This document shows, in pieces, positions 18,600-45,892 of a stretch of 64,000 nucleotides of DNA. Source of the stretch: Shewanella psychromarinicola (lineage in GTDB: Bacteria; Pseudomonadota; Gammaproteobacteria; Enterobacterales; Shewanellaceae); assembly GCF_003855155.1 (NCBI RefSeq), contig NZ_CP034073.1, positions 1,860,001 through 1,924,000 of the forward strand, read 5' to 3'. Position 1 is the stretch's first letter. The number at the start of each line of letters is the position of its first letter. A model generated the notes under the pieces. It searched no databases. It was not told the origin of the DNA and saw only the letters and a program-made list of their open reading frames with translations. A program made the translations under genes and the position numbers.

Positions 18600-18985
18600 A
18601 AGAGATCCTTCTACATATAAAGAGTGGTGATAAGGAGATAGTTAAGGAGATAAAGAGGGCTCACGTTACACGGGCCCATCATCATAAACCATCAAAGGTG
18701 CTGATTATGATAAATACTGACTATATCAGTAAAGTGGAATACTGCTTCTAGCTTAAAACACAAAAATGAAATGGAAAGAGACATTACTAGCAAAAACAAT
18801 GTTTAGGCAAGTGTTTAGTGTTAATAGTCTAATTTTCAGCTGGATGAATTAATTTATTTCTGTGGGATGTTGTTTAGTGTTAACTCGATTCTATTCCATG
18901 TTTTATAACGACCATAGCATTGATATTAGCTAAACCATCACATGCGCCATCTAGCTAGATTTTCATGACTAACTCATTTGTACCC
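18600..18985. other. Gene-free interval upstream of cheX
   Basis: No supported gene. A short direct repeat TAAGGAGATA occurs twice near 18630-18653. A perfect palindrome, ATCTAGCTAGAT followed by TTT, lies at 18949-18963, just before the group II intron remnant. Confidence 0.5.
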
Positions 18986-19306
18986 GTGCGACGTGAAGTC
19001 GTATGAAGCGCTGTTCACCACTTTGAGTAGCTGGTCTCCCGTTGCAAGAAAACTAGAAGAACTTTGTTAATGGAGAAACGCAAGCGATGACTTCAAATGA
19101 AGTTAGTGCCTCTCCTTGCTTTGCTCAATGACAATCCATCGATTGGAGAATCATTAAGAAAAAAGTATCAAATCTACAAGTGAGTATTGCGAAGGTAACC
19201 CTTGTGGTTACGCACTAACATAGTGCGCCTTAGTGGAGGCTTGAGCCGTATGCAGTGAACTGTTCTTAGGAGAGCGGCACTTGGCAACGGGTGCAGCCTA
19301 TCCGAC
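18986..19306 (+). mobile_element. Decayed, ORF-less group II intron remnant
   Basis: The segment opens with GTGCGACG, the conserved 5' end of bacterial group II introns (GUGYG). It contains recognisable domain I sequence (stretches such as aaaactagaagaac and aatggagaaacgcaagcg). At 19243 it has GAGCCGTATGCAGTGAA, the 5' strand of domain V, followed by a domain VI-like hairpin ending in tatCCGAC. The domain V 3' strand is mostly missing, because only about CTGTTC remains where a GTACGGTTC-type strand is expected. No reverse transcriptase is encoded. At about 320 nt this is an inactive relic. It lies 25 bp beyond a palindrome plus T-run, a setting class C introns favour. Orientation +. Confidence 0.7.
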
Positions 19307-19813
19307 CAAAGTAAGTCAGATCTTAGTTTTGCTCCTTTCTATGTGGCACTCATTTGCAGACAAATATGAAATTAAATCGAAGATAGCTAAATTACCGGTG
19401 TAGATGAGTCAGCGAGTCTCCAAAATAGGGACGTTTTGGTTAAGCCCACATGGACGTGCTCGTGGCGTCTCGCTTAATCATCTGCACAAGAGCATGCGGC
19501 AGGCAATTAGTTACCATGACGCAGCGTTATGAATCAAACATAGCTAATACCAAATAAGTCAGTATATCTGACACGTTCTAGTCCCTATCCAGCCACCTTG
19601 TCTGAACCTGAGTGCATGCTTATTGGATCAATCCCTCAAGAGTTGTTTGTTGATCGTTTGGTAAAGAATCTTTGTCCCGTGTATAATCTTTCGTTTGATG
19701 CAGCAAGGCGTCATGCATGGGTTTCCCGCTTACCAAAATCCAATATTTTATGGTTTCCTGCTGGTTCCCCTTGCGCTAAAAACCTTTAGACATGTGCACA
19801 ATTAACCCAGATT
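19307..19813. other. Gene-poor debris between the intron remnant and dusA
   Basis: About 500 bp without a convincing gene. A 63-codon frame (19598-19789, TTG start) has no ribosome binding site and no family I recognise; it could be a fragment of a lost gene. The region immediately precedes dusA, whose 5' coding end is a common island integration site. Confidence 0.45.
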
Positions 19814-20863
19814 ATGAGTATAAAGAATTCAGTGAATACAACGCCAAAGCTAGTGACACCAACGGATACTCTCGATCGCACCTTTTCCATTGCGCCGATG
19901 CTGGATTGGACCGATCGCCACTATCGTTACTTTGCTCGTTTAATGTCGAGCAAAGCCTTGTTGTATACCGAGATGATCACCACGGGTGCGATATTGCAAG
20001 GTAAGGGCGACTATTTGGCCTATAACACTGCAGAACATCCACTGGCGTTACAGTTGGGTGGCTCTAACGCGGTTGATTTAGCGGCGTGTGCCAAATTGGC
20101 TGCTGAGCGTGGTTATGATGAGGTGAACCTGAATGTGGGTTGTCCGTCTGATAGAGTACAAAATGGCCGCTTTGGTGCGTGTTTAATGGCCGAGCCTGAG
20201 TTAGTTGCACAATGCGTTGATGCGATGAAACAAGTCAGTGATATTCCGATTACAGTCAAAACCCGTATTGGGATTGATGAGCAAGACAGTTATCAATTTT
20301 TAACCGACTTTATTGATATCGTCAGTGCCAAAGGTTGTGGTGCTTTTACTATTCATGCGCGTAAAGCCTGGTTGCAAGGCTTAAGCCCGAAAGAGAATCG
20401 TGAGATCCCGCCGTTAGATTATGATCGGGTGTATCAATTAAAGCGCGATTATCCACAGTTGAACATCAGCATTAACGGTGGCATTAAAACGTTAGACGAA
20501 GCAAAGCTACATTTAGCCCAGCTTGACGGGGTGATGGTGGGGCGTGAAGCTTATCAAAACCCGTATATGTTGGCGCAAGTAGATCAACAGTTGTGCGCAA
20601 TCGATAAAGTGGTGATTACTCGCCAACAAGTGATAGAACAAATGTTACCTTATATTGAAGCGCATTTAGCCCAAGGCGGTCGTTTAAATCATATTACCCG
20701 TCATATGATTGGTTTATTTCAGGGCTTACCAGGTTCGCGTGGCTGGCGTCGGCATTTGAGTGAGAATGCTCATAAGCCCAATGCTGATATTGGGGTTGTG
20801 CTTAACGCCGCTGAATTTGTCGATGCAAAAGCACTCGCCAGTGACGAATCTACTTTGATATAA
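19814..20863 (+). CDS. dusA: tRNA-dihydrouridine synthase A
   Basis: FMN enzyme that reduces U20/U20a in tRNA D-loops. 349 residues. N-terminal [19 protein letters not shown], the substrate/FMN segment [15 protein letters not shown], the catalytic-Cys region [21 protein letters not shown], and [21 protein letters not shown] all match DusA. The ATG at 19814 follows weak Shine-Dalgarno sequence. The segment coding for [13 protein letters not shown] (from 20264) is the start of a tandem duplication; a damaged copy of this part of dusA recurs at 22510-22690. Confidence 0.96.
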
Positions 20864-20972
20864 TTCTCGTTATATAGAGGTTATGTCACCAGATTATGTC
20901 GCGAGCTTATGTCGTGAATAAGACGTGAAATAAACGGCCAGACAGACATGTTGAAAACAGCTGTTAGCATAT

Positions 20973-21000
20973 AAAAAGCGCCTATTATTAGGCGTTTTTT
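20973..21000 (+). terminator. Terminator downstream of dusA
   Basis: AAAAAGCGCCTA-ttat-TAGGCGTTTTTT: compact stem and T-run about 110 bp after the dusA stop. Confidence 0.8.
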
Positions 21001-21232
21001 GGTTTTGTCTCTCGCTAGAATCGCTAGCGGAACCATAAAGCCTGCTAAACAACAGTGTCTAATACCATAAGCTAGACAGTCACTAATACAGTCACCGACA
21101 TTTTCACACTTCAACCACTAACCCAGTCACCAAGTTAACCACTAATCTCTGCTACAGCCTCTCAGTTGGCGGTGATATTTCGCTATTTATTGCTACTTTT
21201 TAGCCTTGCTATAATACTGCATAAAAATCGCT

Positions 21233-21269
21233 GGTCATTTTCACTAACTAGATGGTGATTTTTACTACC
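21233..21269 (+). promoter_or_regulatory. Paired 16-bp upstream boxes, copy A
   Basis: GGTcATTTTcACTAaC at 21233-21248 and GGTgATTTTtACTAcC at 21254-21269 are direct repeats with start-to-start spacing of 21 bp (two helical turns). They end about 95 bp upstream of the sigma54-like core. This is the geometry expected for a dimeric or hexameric enhancer-binding activator such as PspF; the activator itself is not in the window. Confidence 0.55.
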
Positions 21270-21363
21270 TGTTGGTTTTTTGTTCTATATTTTAGTTCAT
21301 TTATATTAACGATAATTAATTAATTTAGTCAATTAATTAGCAGGTTACTGTTGTTTTTTAAAG

Positions 21364-21380
21364 TTGGCACGCTGCTTGTA
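21364..21380 (+). promoter_or_regulatory. Sigma54-like core promoter, copy A
   Basis: TTGGCACG-ctgc-TTGTA. The -24 element is a perfect match to TGGCACG, and the GG-to-G spacing of 10 bp to the -12 element is exact; the -12 element reads TTGTA rather than TTGCA. It lies about 70 bp before the gene start at 21449. A TATAAT at about 21391-21396 could alternatively serve sigma70, but it has no well-placed -35 box. Confidence 0.55.
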
Positions 21381-21448
21381 ATACCTATTGTATAATCAAC
21401 TAGACGAGTGTTTAGTTGTCATCAACCAGCACAATAAAGGATTCCATT

Positions 21449-21754
21449 ATGTCTATTTTAACTTCAACTAACGTTATTCGTCGTAGTGTTCAGTTATCAG
21501 TTGCTGCAGCATTATTGGTTACCGCCAGTGTTTCGGCACAGGCTGATGAAATGTCAACCGCTAATACAGTTGCTGCACTTGAGCAGACTATGACCCAAGC
21601 TAGTCAAGAAATGATTGCCAATGTAAAACAAGAGTTAATGTTGTCGTTGCAAACTCAAATAGCTGAACAGGTATTTGAAATGAATTCAGCCCTAGAGTTT
21701 GCTAGCTTTGAACAACCACAAACCACAACAACCTTGACCACTGAGAACAAGTAA
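21449..21754 (+). CDS. Small exported protein of the PspC mini-operon, copy A
   Basis: 101 residues from the ATG at 21449, which has an AAAGGA ribosome binding site; the longer frame from 21416 overlaps the promoter leader. It has an N-terminal signal peptide (about 1-33, VQLSVAAALLVTASVSAQA, AxA cleavage). The mature part is about 68 residues, predicted mostly helical (NTVAALEQTMTQASQEMIANVKQELM), and ends in a Thr-rich tail. No known family recognised. Its stop codon overlaps the start of the next gene (TAATG), so the genes are translationally coupled. Function unknown; an envelope role is inferred from the export signal and the PspC-domain neighbour. Confidence 0.8.
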   Translation: MSILTSTNVIRRSVQLSVAAALLVTASVSAQADEMSTANTVAALEQTMTQASQEMIANVKQELMLSLQTQIAEQVFEMNSALEFASFEQPQTTTTLTTENK

Positions 21755-21885
21755 TGGATTGGATAATGAATATAGCTTTGGTGCTGCCATTAATGTCGTT
21801 ATTGTTATTGCCAGTGATCAGTTTTGCACTGTGTGCGACAGTAGTCAGCTGGCTATTATGGCCAAGCATTAATGACCAAGCTTAA
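21754..21885 (+). CDS. 43-residue membrane peptide of the PspC mini-operon, copy A
   Basis: ATG at 21754 overlaps the previous stop (TAATG). The product starts MDWIMNIALVLPLMSLLLLP and ends SWLLWPSINDQA; it is one long hydrophobic stretch (about 5-36) with short polar ends, so a single-pass or hairpin inner-membrane peptide. It is too short for usual gene-calling cut-offs. Support that it is real: the overlap with its neighbour, and a second copy at 23326-23457 that differs by one residue (Ile4 to Ala). It occupies the position PspB has upstream of PspC, but no PspB similarity is evident. Confidence 0.72.
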   Translation: MDWIMNIALVLPLMSLLLLPVISFALCATVVSWLLWPSINDQA

Positions 21886-21937
21886 TCTGAACACCATTAC
21901 TGACTAGGATAAACCTGGTTGAGTACGAGAGGATAAT

Positions 21938-22138
21938 ATGAAGCGTTTAATCAATAGATTACAAGATGAAACTCGGATCGTATGTGGCGTATCAGCTAAG
22001 TTGGCTAAACAATACGGCTGGTCATTACTTTGGACGCGTGTTGTGACACTAGGGCTCGTTGTCAGTAATCCCAGTATCGGTTTGTTAGCTTACTTTGTGA
22101 TAGCCGTGGTGATGAGTCAAAAAACGACTCGATTTTAA
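21938..22138 (+). CDS. PspC-domain protein, copy A
   Basis: 66 residues consisting of just the PspC domain. A basic amphipathic start (MKRLINRLQDETRIVCGVSAKLAKQYGW) is followed by one membrane helix (RVVTLGLVVSNPSIGLLAYFVIAVVM). Classic PspC is about 120 residues with a longer C-terminal part, missing here. PspC proteins sense or respond to inner-membrane stress. It has an AGAGGA ribosome binding site and is third in the small operon. Copy B differs at two residues. Confidence 0.85.
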   Translation: MKRLINRLQDETRIVCGVSAKLAKQYGWSLLWTRVVTLGLVVSNPSIGLLAYFVIAVVMSQKTTRF

Positions 22139-22159
22139 CGTCTACCCAGCACTAAATAC

Positions 22160-22511
22160 TTCTCCGAGTTAGATGAGTTCAGCCGCTTTTTGTTGGCCCA
22201 CGATTAAGGGTAACAATAAGCTTGATGCGGCTTCAGGAACCAAGGACAGACTAACAAATGGCATCTGAAATCTAGCCCTATTGTCGGCATACACTAAGTC
22301 GCAATGAAGTAGCAAGGTTGTACCCATTCCCACAGCAGCCCCGTCACAGCAGACACAACCGTTTTTTTTAGACCCAATAAGCAAAGCAAGAATGTAACCG
22401 TTGGATGCCCCTCGACTAATTGACCACTCTTGAGGACATCTGCTTTCTCATTACCTGATGTAAAGCCATTTTCTGTACCATGTACCATGTACCATGAAGC
22501 ATAAAGGCACG
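22160..22511 (-). pseudogene. Truncated enoyl-CoA hydratase/isomerase pseudogene (duplicate fragment)
   Basis: Clear copy of the central part of the intact gene at 23779-24516: the stretches encoding QMPFVSLxLVPEAASSLLLP and LIVGQQKAAEL are retained. The C-terminal third is deleted next to the PspC gene. The N-terminal end is cut at 22510-22511, where the sequence passes directly into a fragment of dusA. Internal frameshifts and a 7-bp triplet (gtaccat three times near 22477-22497) disrupt the frame. Not expected to be functional. Confidence 0.9.
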
Positions 22512-22692
22512 TATTGGGATTAACGACCAAGACAGCCATCAATGTTTAACTGACTTTATTAGATCTATGAGTGGTAAAGGTTGCAGTGTTTTTACCATTG
22601 ATGCGCGAAAGCATGGTTACAAGGCTTAAGCTCGAAAGCAAATTGTGACATCCCGCCGTTAGATTATGAGTGTGTTTACCCGCTAAAACGTT
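22510..22692 (+). pseudogene. dusA internal fragment (duplicate)
   Basis: Matches dusA from base 20264 onward (cgtattgggat..., then gactttatt, gcgcgaaag, catcccgccgttagatt) with many substitutions and small indels, over about 180 bp. Its left edge is the recombination junction with the hydratase fragment. The rest of dusA is absent. This shows that the region arose by tandem duplication from dusA to the hydratase gene. Confidence 0.88.
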
Positions 22693-22799
22693 GACTCATT
22701 CACTCACTCATACACTCAGTCATTTCACTTAACACCACGGTGATAGCTGGCCATTTATTTAAGCTGTTCATCTTTTTTACATGGGTTAACAAAAGGGCT

Positions 22800-22836
22800 G
22801 GTCATTCTCACTAACGATATGGTTAATTTTACTACC
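22800..22836 (+). promoter_or_regulatory. Paired 16-bp upstream boxes, copy B
   Basis: GGTCATTCTCACTAAC at 22800-22815 and GGTTAATTTTACTACC at 22821-22836, again exactly 21 bp start to start. The boxes and spacing are kept while the intervening bases differ from copy A (gatat versus tagat). Confidence 0.55.
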
Positions 22837-22929
22837 TGTTGGTTTTTTGTTCGAGAGGTTGGTTCATTTATATGAACGATAATTAATTAATTTAGTATAT
22901 TAATTATGTGGTTACTGATTCTTTTAAAG

Positions 22930-22946
22930 TTGGCATGCTACTTGTA
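22930..22946 (+). promoter_or_regulatory. Sigma54-like core promoter, copy B
   Basis: TTGGCATG-ctac-TTGTA: same layout as copy A with two spacer changes and one change in the -24 box (TGGCATG also occurs in known sigma54 promoters). The non-consensus TTGTA is shared by both copies. Confidence 0.52.
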
Positions 22947-23014
22947 ACACCTATTGTATAATCAACTAGACGAGTGTTTAGTTGTCATCAACTAGCACAA
23001 TAAAGGATTCCATT

Positions 23015-23326
23015 ATGTCTATTTTAACTTTAACTTCAACTAACGTTATTCGTCGTAGTGTTCAATTATCAATTGCTGCAGCATTACTCGTTACCGCCAG
23101 TGTTTCGGCTCAGGCTGATGAAATCTCAATCTCAAATACGGTTGCTACGCTTGAGCAGACTATGACCCGAGCTAGCCAACAAATGATTGCCAATGTAAAA
23201 CAAGAGTTAATGTTGTCGTTGCAAACTCAAATAGCTGAACAGGTATTTGAAATGAATTCAGCCCTAGAGTTTGCTAGCTTTGAACAACCACAAACCACAA
23301 CAACCTTAACCACTGAGAACAAGTAA
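23015..23326 (+). CDS. Small exported protein of the PspC mini-operon, copy B
   Basis: 103 residues from the ATG at 23015 with the same AAAGGA ribosome binding site. It is nearly the same as copy A, with a two-residue insertion near the start (ILTLTSTN versus ILTSTN) and a few substitutions in the signal peptide and mature N-terminal part; the C-terminal half is almost identical. The stop overlaps the next start (TAATG), preserving coupling. Intact open frame. Confidence 0.8.
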   Translation: MSILTLTSTNVIRRSVQLSIAAALLVTASVSAQADEISISNTVATLEQTMTRASQQMIANVKQELMLSLQTQIAEQVFEMNSALEFASFEQPQTTTTLTTENK

Positions 23327-23457
23327 TGGATTGGGCAATGAATATAGCTTTGGTGCTGCCATTAATGTCGTTATTGTTATTGCCAGTGATCAGTTTTGCA
23401 CTGTGTGCGACAGTAGTCAGCTGGCTATTATGGCCAAGCATTAATGACCAAGCTTAA
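23326..23457 (+). CDS. 43-residue membrane peptide of the PspC mini-operon, copy B
   Basis: Second copy of the peptide at 21754-21885; the protein differs only at residue 4 (MDWAMN versus MDWIMN). Start overlaps the upstream stop in the same way. The preserved frame and length in both copies argue that it is translated. Confidence 0.72.
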   Translation: MDWAMNIALVLPLMSLLLLPVISFALCATVVSWLLWPSINDQA

Positions 23458-23509
23458 TCTGAACACCATTACTGACTAGGATAAACCTGGTTGAGTACGA
23501 GAGGATAAT

Positions 23510-23710
23510 ATGAAGCGTTTAATCAATAGATTACAAGATGAAACTCGGATCGTATGTGGCGTATCAGCTAAGCTGGCTAAACAATACGGCTGGTCATTAC
23601 TTTGGACACGTGTTGTGACAGTAGGGCTCGTTGTAAGCACCCCCAGTATCGGTCTGTTAGCTTACTTTGTGATAGCCGTAGTGATGAGTCAAAAAACGAC
23701 TCGATTTTAA
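23510..23710 (+). CDS. PspC-domain protein, copy B
   Basis: 66 residues, identical to copy A except Leu-to-Val and Asn-to-Thr changes in the membrane-helix region (RVVTVGLVVSTPSIG). Same short architecture and same AGAGGA ribosome binding site. It is followed by the intact hydratase/isomerase gene on the opposite strand. Confidence 0.85.
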   Translation: MKRLINRLQDETRIVCGVSAKLAKQYGWSLLWTRVVTVGLVVSTPSIGLLAYFVIAVVMSQKTTRF

Positions 23711-23778
23711 CGTTTACTCAGCAGTGGGTAAACGGGGCCATGACTTTCCCCGTAGACAGGTTATATCGAGTAGGATAT

Positions 23779-24516
23779 TTATTTTTGTAAGAAAGCTTGG
23801 AAGCGTTGTTTGGCTTCATCACTTTGTAAACGTTTAGAGAACTGAACTAATTCTAACTTCATTTGTGCTTTTACTTGTGCCTGATTATGGCGTAAAAGCT
23901 GTTTCGATGCTTGAAGTGACTGAGGTGGTTGTGCAGCAAGTTTTTTCGCTTGAGCTAAGCTGAAACTCAATAAATCGGCATCATCGACCACTTTATTAAT
24001 AATATTTAATTCTGCCGCTGTCGTAGCATTAAATGCTTCTCCGAGTAAGATGAGTTCAGCCGCTTTTTGTTGGCCCACGATTAAGGGTAACAATAAGCTT
24101 GATGCGGCTTCAGGAACCAAGGCCAGACTAACAAATGGCATCTGAAATTTAGCACTATTGTCGGCATACACTAAGTCGCAATGAAGTAGCAAGGTTGTAC
24201 CAATTCCCACCGCGGCCCCCGTTACAGCAGCCACAACCGGTTTTTTAAGATCCAATAAGCAAAACAAGAATTTAACCGTTGGATGCTCCTCGACTAATTC
24301 ACCACTCTTGAGGAAATCTGCGATATCATTGCCTGATGTAAAACAGTTTTCTGTACCATGAAACATAAAGGCACGAATATCGTTGTCGGCTTCACCTTGG
24401 ATCAGGTATTCTGTGAATTGCTGATACATTTCTAGATTAAAGGCATTGCGCTTTTCTGGACGATTAAAACTGATGATCCGTACGCCTTGATCATCTCTTA
24501 CCTGAATATGACTCAT
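23779..24516 (-). CDS. Enoyl-CoA hydratase/isomerase family protein
   Basis: Crotonase-fold protein of 245 residues. Typical motifs are NRPEKRNAFNLEMYQ, the oxyanion-hole segment FTSGNDIADF, and AAVTGAAVGIGTTLLLHCDLVYA. The first catalytic Glu of hydratases (in the GGGxE position) is replaced by Thr (GIGTTL), while a Glu in the LVPEAAS segment is kept, as in delta3-delta2-enoyl-CoA isomerases. Isomerase-like activity is therefore more likely than hydratase. It diverges from the copper-chaperone gene. Its N-terminal part (near 24375) is the second breakpoint of the local duplication. Confidence 0.9.
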   Translation of the reverse strand: MSHIQVRDDQGVRIISFNRPEKRNAFNLEMYQQFTEYLIQGEADNDIRAFMFHGTENCFTSGNDIADFLKSGELVEEHPTVKFLFCLLDLKKPVVAAVTGAAVGIGTTLLLHCDLVYADNSAKFQMPFVSLALVPEAASSLLLPLIVGQQKAAELILLGEAFNATTAAELNIINKVVDDADLLSFSLAQAKKLAAQPPQSLQASKQLLRHNQAQVKAQMKLELVQFSKRLQSDEAKQRFQAFLQK

Positions 24517-45450: not shown

Positions 45451-45526
45451 GCGACATTAGCTCAGTTGGTAGAGCGATACCTTGCCAAGGTATAGGTCAT
45501 CAGTTCGAACCTGATATGTCGCTCCA
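45451..45526 (+). tRNA. tRNA-Gly(GCC), copy 1
   Basis: 76 nt including encoded CCA. Acceptor GCGACAT/ATGTCGC, D stem GCTC/GAGC, anticodon stem ATACC/GGTAT with loop TTGCCAA (anticodon GCC), T arm ATCAG-TTCGAAC-CTGAT. All stems pair perfectly. Confidence 0.97.
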
Positions 45527-45562
45527 AATTTCTGTATGATTTTAAAAGAAAGTGAAATATGT

Positions 45563-45668
45563 GCGACATTAGCTCAGTTGAGTTAATTGTAAGAGTCGAT
45601 ACCAATCTTGTTCCAAGGTATAGGTCATCAGTTCGAACCCCTCTTTATTTATAAAGAAGGTCGCTCCA
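45563..45668 (+). pseudogene. Disrupted tRNA-Gly, copy 2 (chimeric)
   Basis: 106 nt. Normal acceptor 5' strand and TCGCTCCA 3' end, but extra bases in the D arm (agttgagttaattgtaag) and in the anticodon loop (ATACCaatcttgttCCAAGG, so the GCC anticodon is lost). The 3' half of the T stem is replaced by a Ctctttatttataaagaag-type palindrome. It cannot fold as tRNA. Confidence 0.88.
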
Positions 45669-45704
45669 AATTTCTGTTAGATTTTAAAAGAAAGCGAAAA
45701 GTGT

Positions 45705-45780
45705 GCGACATTAGCTCAGTTGGTAGAGCGATACCTTGCCAAGGTATAGGTCATCAGTTCGAACCTGATATGTCGCTCCA
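45705..45780 (+). tRNA. tRNA-Gly(GCC), copy 3
   Basis: Identical to copy 1 over all 76 nt, including CCA. Confidence 0.97.
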
Positions 45781-45816
45781 AATTTCTGTATGATTTTAAA
45801 ATAAAGTGAAATATGT

Positions 45817-45892
45817 GCGACATTAGCTCAGTTGGTAGAGCGATACCTTGCCAAGGTATAGGTCATCAGTTCGAACCTGATATGTCGCTCCA
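45817..45892 (+). tRNA. tRNA-Gly(GCC), copy 4
   Basis: Identical to copies 1 and 3 over all 76 nt, including CCA. Copies 3 and 4 share near-identical spacers (aatttctg...attttaaaa). Confidence 0.97.

Follow-up and report, generated by a model that had tools for sequence, protein, structure and literature searches.

In Escherichia coli, the dusA gene is followed by pspG, and the spacer between the two is listed in RpoN target tables (PMC8743547). The locus described here, a three-gene operon (g1, g2 and g3) that is present twice behind dusA in Shewanella psychromarinicola, shares with it the place after dusA, an enhancer-like site, a -24/-12 promoter with TTGT and small membrane proteins. On the other hand, E. 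coli has one gene where three are found here, none of g1, g2 and g3 matches the PspG model PF09583, and g2 is without profile similarity to PspG. The second closely related system is the pspABC operon. The PspC domain is common to it and to g3, and a site pair of this kind with a -24 box also occurs in the pspA control region, but the canonical PspC of this genome has 131 amino acids against 66 for g3, and the duplicated operon is without PspA and PspB. We studied the operon in a stretch of 64,000 nucleotides (contig NZ_CP034073.1, positions 1,860,001 to 1,924,000; hereafter the window) of a genome assembled as a single contig of 5.13 Mb. Very probably, the locus represents an in-situ tandem duplication of a phage-shock operon controlled by PspF and sigma-54, placed in the slot that takes the position of pspG in the Shewanellaceae.

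The gene order given in an earlier, sequence-only reading of the window holds, as do its coordinates: dusA, copy A, a crotonase fragment, a dusA fragment, copy B and the crotonase gene (Table 1). That reading had proposed one tandem duplication from inside dusA to inside the crotonase gene, and the crotonase-to-dusA junction, the single set in relatives and the derived states that the two copies have in common all bear this out. At the novel junction (22509/22510), the parent sequences have only CG in common, a microhomology of 2 bp, and therefore the join is regarded as illegitimate. Tandem duplication via illegitimate recombination, followed by gene conversion, is a standard process. A novel junction with short microhomology, decay of the bystander pieces and mosaic identity are likewise found here, with nothing unusual in the mechanism. 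The duplication is real and its mechanism is ordinary.

The copy number in relatives was determined with 129 Shewanella species genomes, one genome per species. A protein search with g3 (E ≤ 1e-4) matched 121 of them, at two places in the window genome and at one place in each of the other 120; no g3 match was detected at this threshold in the remaining eight. Single copy, as defined by g3 and not by g1, is thus the state of 120 of the 129 genomes, and the comparison of single-copy and two-copy states suggested by the sequence-only reading returned two copies in the window genome only. As for a third operon copy elsewhere in that genome, a DNA search returned the two copies only. In all 35 loci of relatives (L004-L038), dusA, g1, g2, g3 and the crotonase gene were matched as one set each, and the gene order taken from the coordinates was the same. 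The two-copy state was also absent from all 12 further stretches of the clade (L071-L082), six of which (L071, L072, L077, L079, L080 and L082) overlap the 35 loci and one of which (L076) begins inside the operon, at a contig end. Compared with six near relatives, from which the window genome is separated by a synonymous divergence (dS) of 0.58-0.78 in dusA, A and B have derived states in common in every segment, and therefore the duplication postdates the split from these six. In the protein collection, an A-type g1 (P0025) and a B-type g1 (P0029) have the same longest contig figure, 28,722 bases, which suggests a second two-copy strain. Dispersed g1 paralogs occur in other species. In genome G082, a second strong match to the g1 profile (G082:C1:2116690-2116959, E 8e-22) lies far from the other match, and the g1 homologs P0080 and P0106 are both listed with a contig of 5,163,726 bases.

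The two copies were then compared segment by segment. In the pairwise alignment, mismatches were found at 33 of 180 positions in the dusA piece (plus three 1-nt gaps), 24 of 223 in the upstream region, 16 of 306 in g1 (plus one in-frame 6-nt indel), 2 of 132 in g2, 0 of 52 in the g2-g3 spacer, 9 of 201 in g3 and 28 of 353 in the crotonase piece (plus gaps of 1 and 14 nt). A second alignment with the six near relatives was used to polarise these differences. The counts for g1, g2, the spacer and g3 were the same in it, and the upstream region differed at 24 of 224 positions. The dusA piece differed at 38 of 181 positions (23 changes in the fragment, five in the intact gene, ten unassigned), the proximal crotonase piece at 9 of 195 (five, none and four, respectively) and the distal crotonase piece at 18 of 153 (16, none and two). 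The operon with its spacer (27 of 691) is thus far less diverged than the dusA and distal crotonase pieces together (56 of 334; Fisher p = 1.2e-11), but is not different from the proximal crotonase piece (p = 0.68). The contrast between operon and bystanders noted from the sequence alone is therefore real for most of the bystander DNA, the proximal crotonase piece being the exception.

The changes in the fragment lineages are spread over the three codon positions (10, 6 and 7 in the dusA fragment; 7, 4 and 5 in the distal crotonase fragment), a pattern typical of pseudogenes, and therefore these pieces decayed in place. This agrees with the earlier statement that the bystander pieces have decayed; the operon genes are open in both copies, as was also stated there. 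The spread of the changes also bears on the idea that unequal homologous recombination brought in the second copy from a diverged strain or species, so that part of the A-B difference would be older than the duplication. A sizeable silent divergence (about 0.16 outside the identical block described below) and the presence of both A-type and B-type proteins among the closest sequences in the collection speak for such an import. We consider it improbable, as the spread over codon positions indicates decay in place and not imported functional alleles, and as A and B share derived states relative to the six relatives.

By these sequence measures, purifying selection acts on the amino-acid sites of the operon pair. 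Between A and B, the three genes together gave a dS of 0.122 and a non-synonymous divergence (dN) of 0.023 (dN/dS about 0.19), and the probability of 11 or fewer non-synonymous changes among 27 was 4e-5 without transition bias and 1.5e-3 at transition weight 6. Gene conversion is at work as well. The longest identical run, of 236 bases, is unchanged at all of its roughly 96 silent sites, for which the probability at the silent rate outside the run is about 8e-8 (a value uncorrected for the choice of the longest run). As this block includes silent sites and the spacer between g2 and g3, which differs by 33-39% from the four alignable of the six relatives, it is attributed to conversion and not to constraint. 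The fragment changes are also fewer in the proximal crotonase piece than in the distal one (5 of 195 versus 16 of 153, p = 0.003); because the proximal piece is too similar by this comparison and indistinguishable from the operon, a second conversion tract in it is likely. The operon/bystander contrast therefore has two causes, purifying selection and local gene conversion. The silent divergence outside the identical block, 0.157, is above the value for the distal crotonase piece (0.12) and below that for the dusA piece (0.21), so that special protection of the whole operon is not needed.

The sequence-only reading had suggested that the extra dose of the operon is kept by selection or gene conversion. 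Purifying selection and conversion are both supported here, but selection for dose is not, given this silent divergence and a 53-amino-acid truncated g1 of the copy-A type (P0112), which is found on a contig of 4,554,090 bases other than that of the window genome. In at least one close genome, g1 thus seems to be broken. Retention of both copies is compatible with selection and is no proof of dose selection. There is in fact a substantial chance, if less than an even one, that the duplication is neutral or transient, with the additional copy surviving through chance and through conversion from the good copy and bringing no dose advantage. The occurrence of two copies in one of the 129 species genomes, the truncated protein and the extension of the identical block across an unconserved spacer are consistent with such drift. 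Against it, dN/dS is 0.19, and although silent sites outside the block have diverged by about 0.16, neither operon copy has a frameshift, in contrast to the several indels of the bystander pieces; in addition, both promoters still match the motif.

The control of the operon was analysed by alignment of 37 upstream regions, those of the two window copies and of the 35 relatives. TTGGCRY was present in all 37, with a -12 element of TTGT in 31, TCGC in five and TTGC in one. Two more boxes are conserved, and they are similar to the two found between pspF and pspA in Shewanella. With a position weight matrix (PWM) trained on Shewanella pspA sites only (24 loci with two sites each, including that of the window genome), the mean score of the operon regions, 37 in all, was 11.3, and that of shuffled sequences 4.0 (sd 3.25). 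In 30 of the 37 regions, the best site began at -132 or -111 relative to the -24 box, give or take 2 bp, and at most one of 40 shuffles scored as high in 25 regions, including both window copies (0 of 40). On E. coli DNA, the matrix scored TTAGTGTAATTCGCTAAC upstream of pspA at 15.1 and a site in the dusA-pspG spacer at 10.4, and this spacer likewise holds TTGGCAT with TTGT; the E. coli PspF site sequence is not given in the portion of PMC6710252 that was covered. A composite pattern had seven matches in the whole genome, two in copy A, two in copy B, one at pspA and two elsewhere, against one match for the reversed control. Enhancer site 1 at pspA of the window genome (L064) reads TTAGTGATTTAGACTAA, against a genus consensus of TTAGTCTTTCACGCTAA, with the outer half-sites kept.

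From these motifs, the operon is probably a member of the PspF/sigma-54 regulon. The sequence-only reading had seen a small PspC-type operon with upstream control boxes; the PspF/sigma-54 promoter and the pspG position went unrecognised in it. Its description of the boxes as nearly identical was not confirmed, as the control region differs by 10.8% between the copies and the three recognisable boxes hold five of the 24 differences. Despite these five differences, the boxes of the two copies remain matches to the motifs. Instead of being under PspF control, the operon could be driven by a different sigma-54 activator or from a sigma-70 promoter. The PspF model matches the genome at 17 places, one of them over the curated cut-off among the matches listed, which implies that other sigma-54 activators exist, and the motif scores are moderate, with two unrelated window stretches above copy B. 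Control by another factor is nevertheless judged unlikely, since the pspA motif recurs in two enhancer-like sites whose spacing is mostly fixed, the operon occupies the pspG slot and g3 encodes a PspC domain.

No Pfam family was found for g1 and g2. Export of g1 was judged from its N-terminus by eye only. Strong matches to the g1 profile (E ≤ 3e-6) were confined to Shewanella (20 of 295 genomes of the order), and all organism-named entries among 112 g1 homologs in the protein collection are from Shewanella. Weak profile matches in six genomes outside the genus (E 2.8e-4 to 0.0095) were taken as chance. A shortened PspG was considered for g2 on a weak tblastn match (E 0.006) and was rejected, as the hhalign probability was 0.2 on a scale of 100. 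The g3 protein passes the gathering cut-off of PF04024 (38.3 versus 25 bits) and stays below that of the PspC equivalog model TIGR02978 (23.8 versus 104 bits). The window genome also encodes PspF and a complete pspABC adjoining pspF, and a study of ArcA in S. oneidensis lists pspF and pspABC (PMC2262068).

The place after dusA was compared across the order. PspG was found in 57 of 295 genomes (15 of 99 genera); this search found none in the family of the window genome, and PspG was likewise found in none of 24 Shewanella. The best 12 of the 57 pspG loci all adjoin dusA. In one relative (L083), dusA-pspG is followed by a PCuAC gene, and a PCuAC gene also lies beyond the crotonase gene at the window locus. 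Absence of the locus from the eight g3-negative Shewanella was considered and rejected, as their dusA-downstream regions carry TGGCAY-N5-TTGA and a small exported-looking open reading frame (ORF; by eye). Nine such regions were inspected, those of the eight genomes and of one sister genus (L121-L129). The strict promoter pattern matched none of the nine, and a looser pattern, set after the sequences were seen, matched all nine; the best motif scores were 7.3 to 17.6, without shuffle control. Behind the sigma-54-like promoter lie differing small ORFs that look exported or membrane-bound, with g1-like matches (E < 1e-3) in six of the nine regions and g3-like matches in three (L126, L128 and L129). 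As a promoter-like element, motif-like sites and a small ORF are kept in these regions, slot and control appear mostly conserved while the gene content turns over.

Several points weigh against the interpretation of the locus as a duplicated PspF/sigma-54 operon in the pspG slot. At the level of the motif, 12 of the 37 upstream regions have 2 to 17 of 40 shuffles scoring as high, and are therefore not singly distinct. Among 355 window stretches of 180 bp (mean 2.0), two unrelated ones (15.0 and 11.8) outscore copy B (11.6), which ranks third, and the composite pattern was composed after the sites had been seen. Within the 12 best pspG loci, the strict promoter pattern was present in eight and the best motif scores ranged from 1.5 to 11.1; for these reasons the motif must be regarded as soft. 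There are also exceptions to the slot, as dusA is missing from the 2.45 kb upstream of g1 in L081 and from the 5.5-kb stretch of L084, where pspG adjoins the PCuAC gene. Since g2 is no relative of PspG by profile, occupation of the pspG slot refers to position and regulation, and not to homology. Finally, five synonymous and five non-synonymous changes were assigned to each operon copy, with seven left unassigned, and these counts do not suffice to demonstrate constraint for the two copies taken separately.

Table 1. Positions in the window of the duplicated operon, its predicted control elements and the adjoining genes.
Feature	Position	Strand	Evidence
dusA, intact, donor of left bystander piece	19814..20863	+	NF008774 539.9 bits, TIGR00742 502.9 bits
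Copy A enhancer-like site 1, similar to PspF upstream activating sequence	21231..21248	+	pspA-trained PWM 10.5, 0/40 shuffles as high
Copy A enhancer-like site 2, starts 21 bp after site 1	21252..21269	+	alignment with relatives, pattern search
Copy A sigma-54-type -24/-12 element TTGGCACGCTGCTTGT	21364..21379	+	TTGGCRY
Copy A, whole operon	21449-22138		
Copy A g1, 101 aa, signal-peptide-like N-terminus (by eye)	21449..21754	+	no Pfam/NCBIfam family
Copy A g2, 43-aa single-span membrane peptide (by eye)	21754..21885	+	alignment; not PspG-like by hhalign
Block of 236 bp identical in copy B, probable gene-conversion tract	21765..22000	+	
Copy A g3, 66-aa stand-alone PspC-domain protein	21938..22138	+	PF04024 38.3 bits, cut-off 25
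Crotonase fragment, decayed, duplication remnant	22148..22509	-	
dusA fragment, decayed	22510..22690	+	
Copy B enhancer-like site 1	22798..22815	+	PWM 11.6, 0/40 shuffles as high
Copy B enhancer-like site 2	22819..22836	+	pattern search
Copy B -24/-12 element TTGGCATGCTACTTGT	22930..22945	+	
Copy B, whole operon	23015-23710		
Copy B g1, two residues longer than copy A g1	23015..23326	+	
Copy B g2	23326..23457	+	
Copy B g3, PspC domain, 97% identity to copy A g3	23510..23710	+	
Crotonase/enoyl-CoA hydratase family gene, intact	23779..24516	-	PF00378 151.3 bits

Upstream of dusA, about 1.2 kb (18600-19810) contain no listed ORF of more than 63 amino acids wholly within them and look like decayed remains. 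Part of this region resembles the end of a group II intron, but it had no Rfam match at the gathering score. At the gathering thresholds, Rfam returned only three tRNAs from the whole window, with equal scores and in a row at 45451-45889.

The operon was not described in the literature matches listed on Shewanella and PspF-regulon topics, a set that does not cover subscription papers, and the word Shewanella is absent from the main texts of two phage-shock surveys (PMC9239133 and PMC11237479). In the mechanism that we propose, PspA would release PspF upon stress at the inner membrane, and the freed PspF would bind the paired upstream sites and activate sigma-54 RNA polymerase at pspABC and at both operon copies. 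The operon would supply a helical-looking protein for export, a very small membrane peptide and a short membrane protein with a PspC domain, which may help PspA, PspB and PspC to sense or repair the membrane, where PspG serves in E. coli. With two copies, the dose would be doubled. A wider and more tentative proposal, which we would favour less than its converse, is that the position behind dusA serves as a PspF/sigma-54 effector socket refilled by lineages, with PspG in many gammaproteobacteria and a fast-evolving set of the g1-g3 type in the Shewanellaceae, and that its periplasmic arm has been doubled and kept at higher dose here.

More interesting than the duplication itself is the uncharacterised operon that it doubled, with its predicted control by PspF and an exported-looking protein that belongs to no known family. 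The two copies, short as they are, also preserve a natural record of neutral decay, of purifying selection and of gene conversion, and the three can be distinguished in it. Shewanellaceae with PspF and pspABC but a different operon in the pspG position would offer a natural replacement for comparison with PspG. If the effector socket is true, the phage-shock response would include a periplasmic arm outside the classical PspABC scheme.

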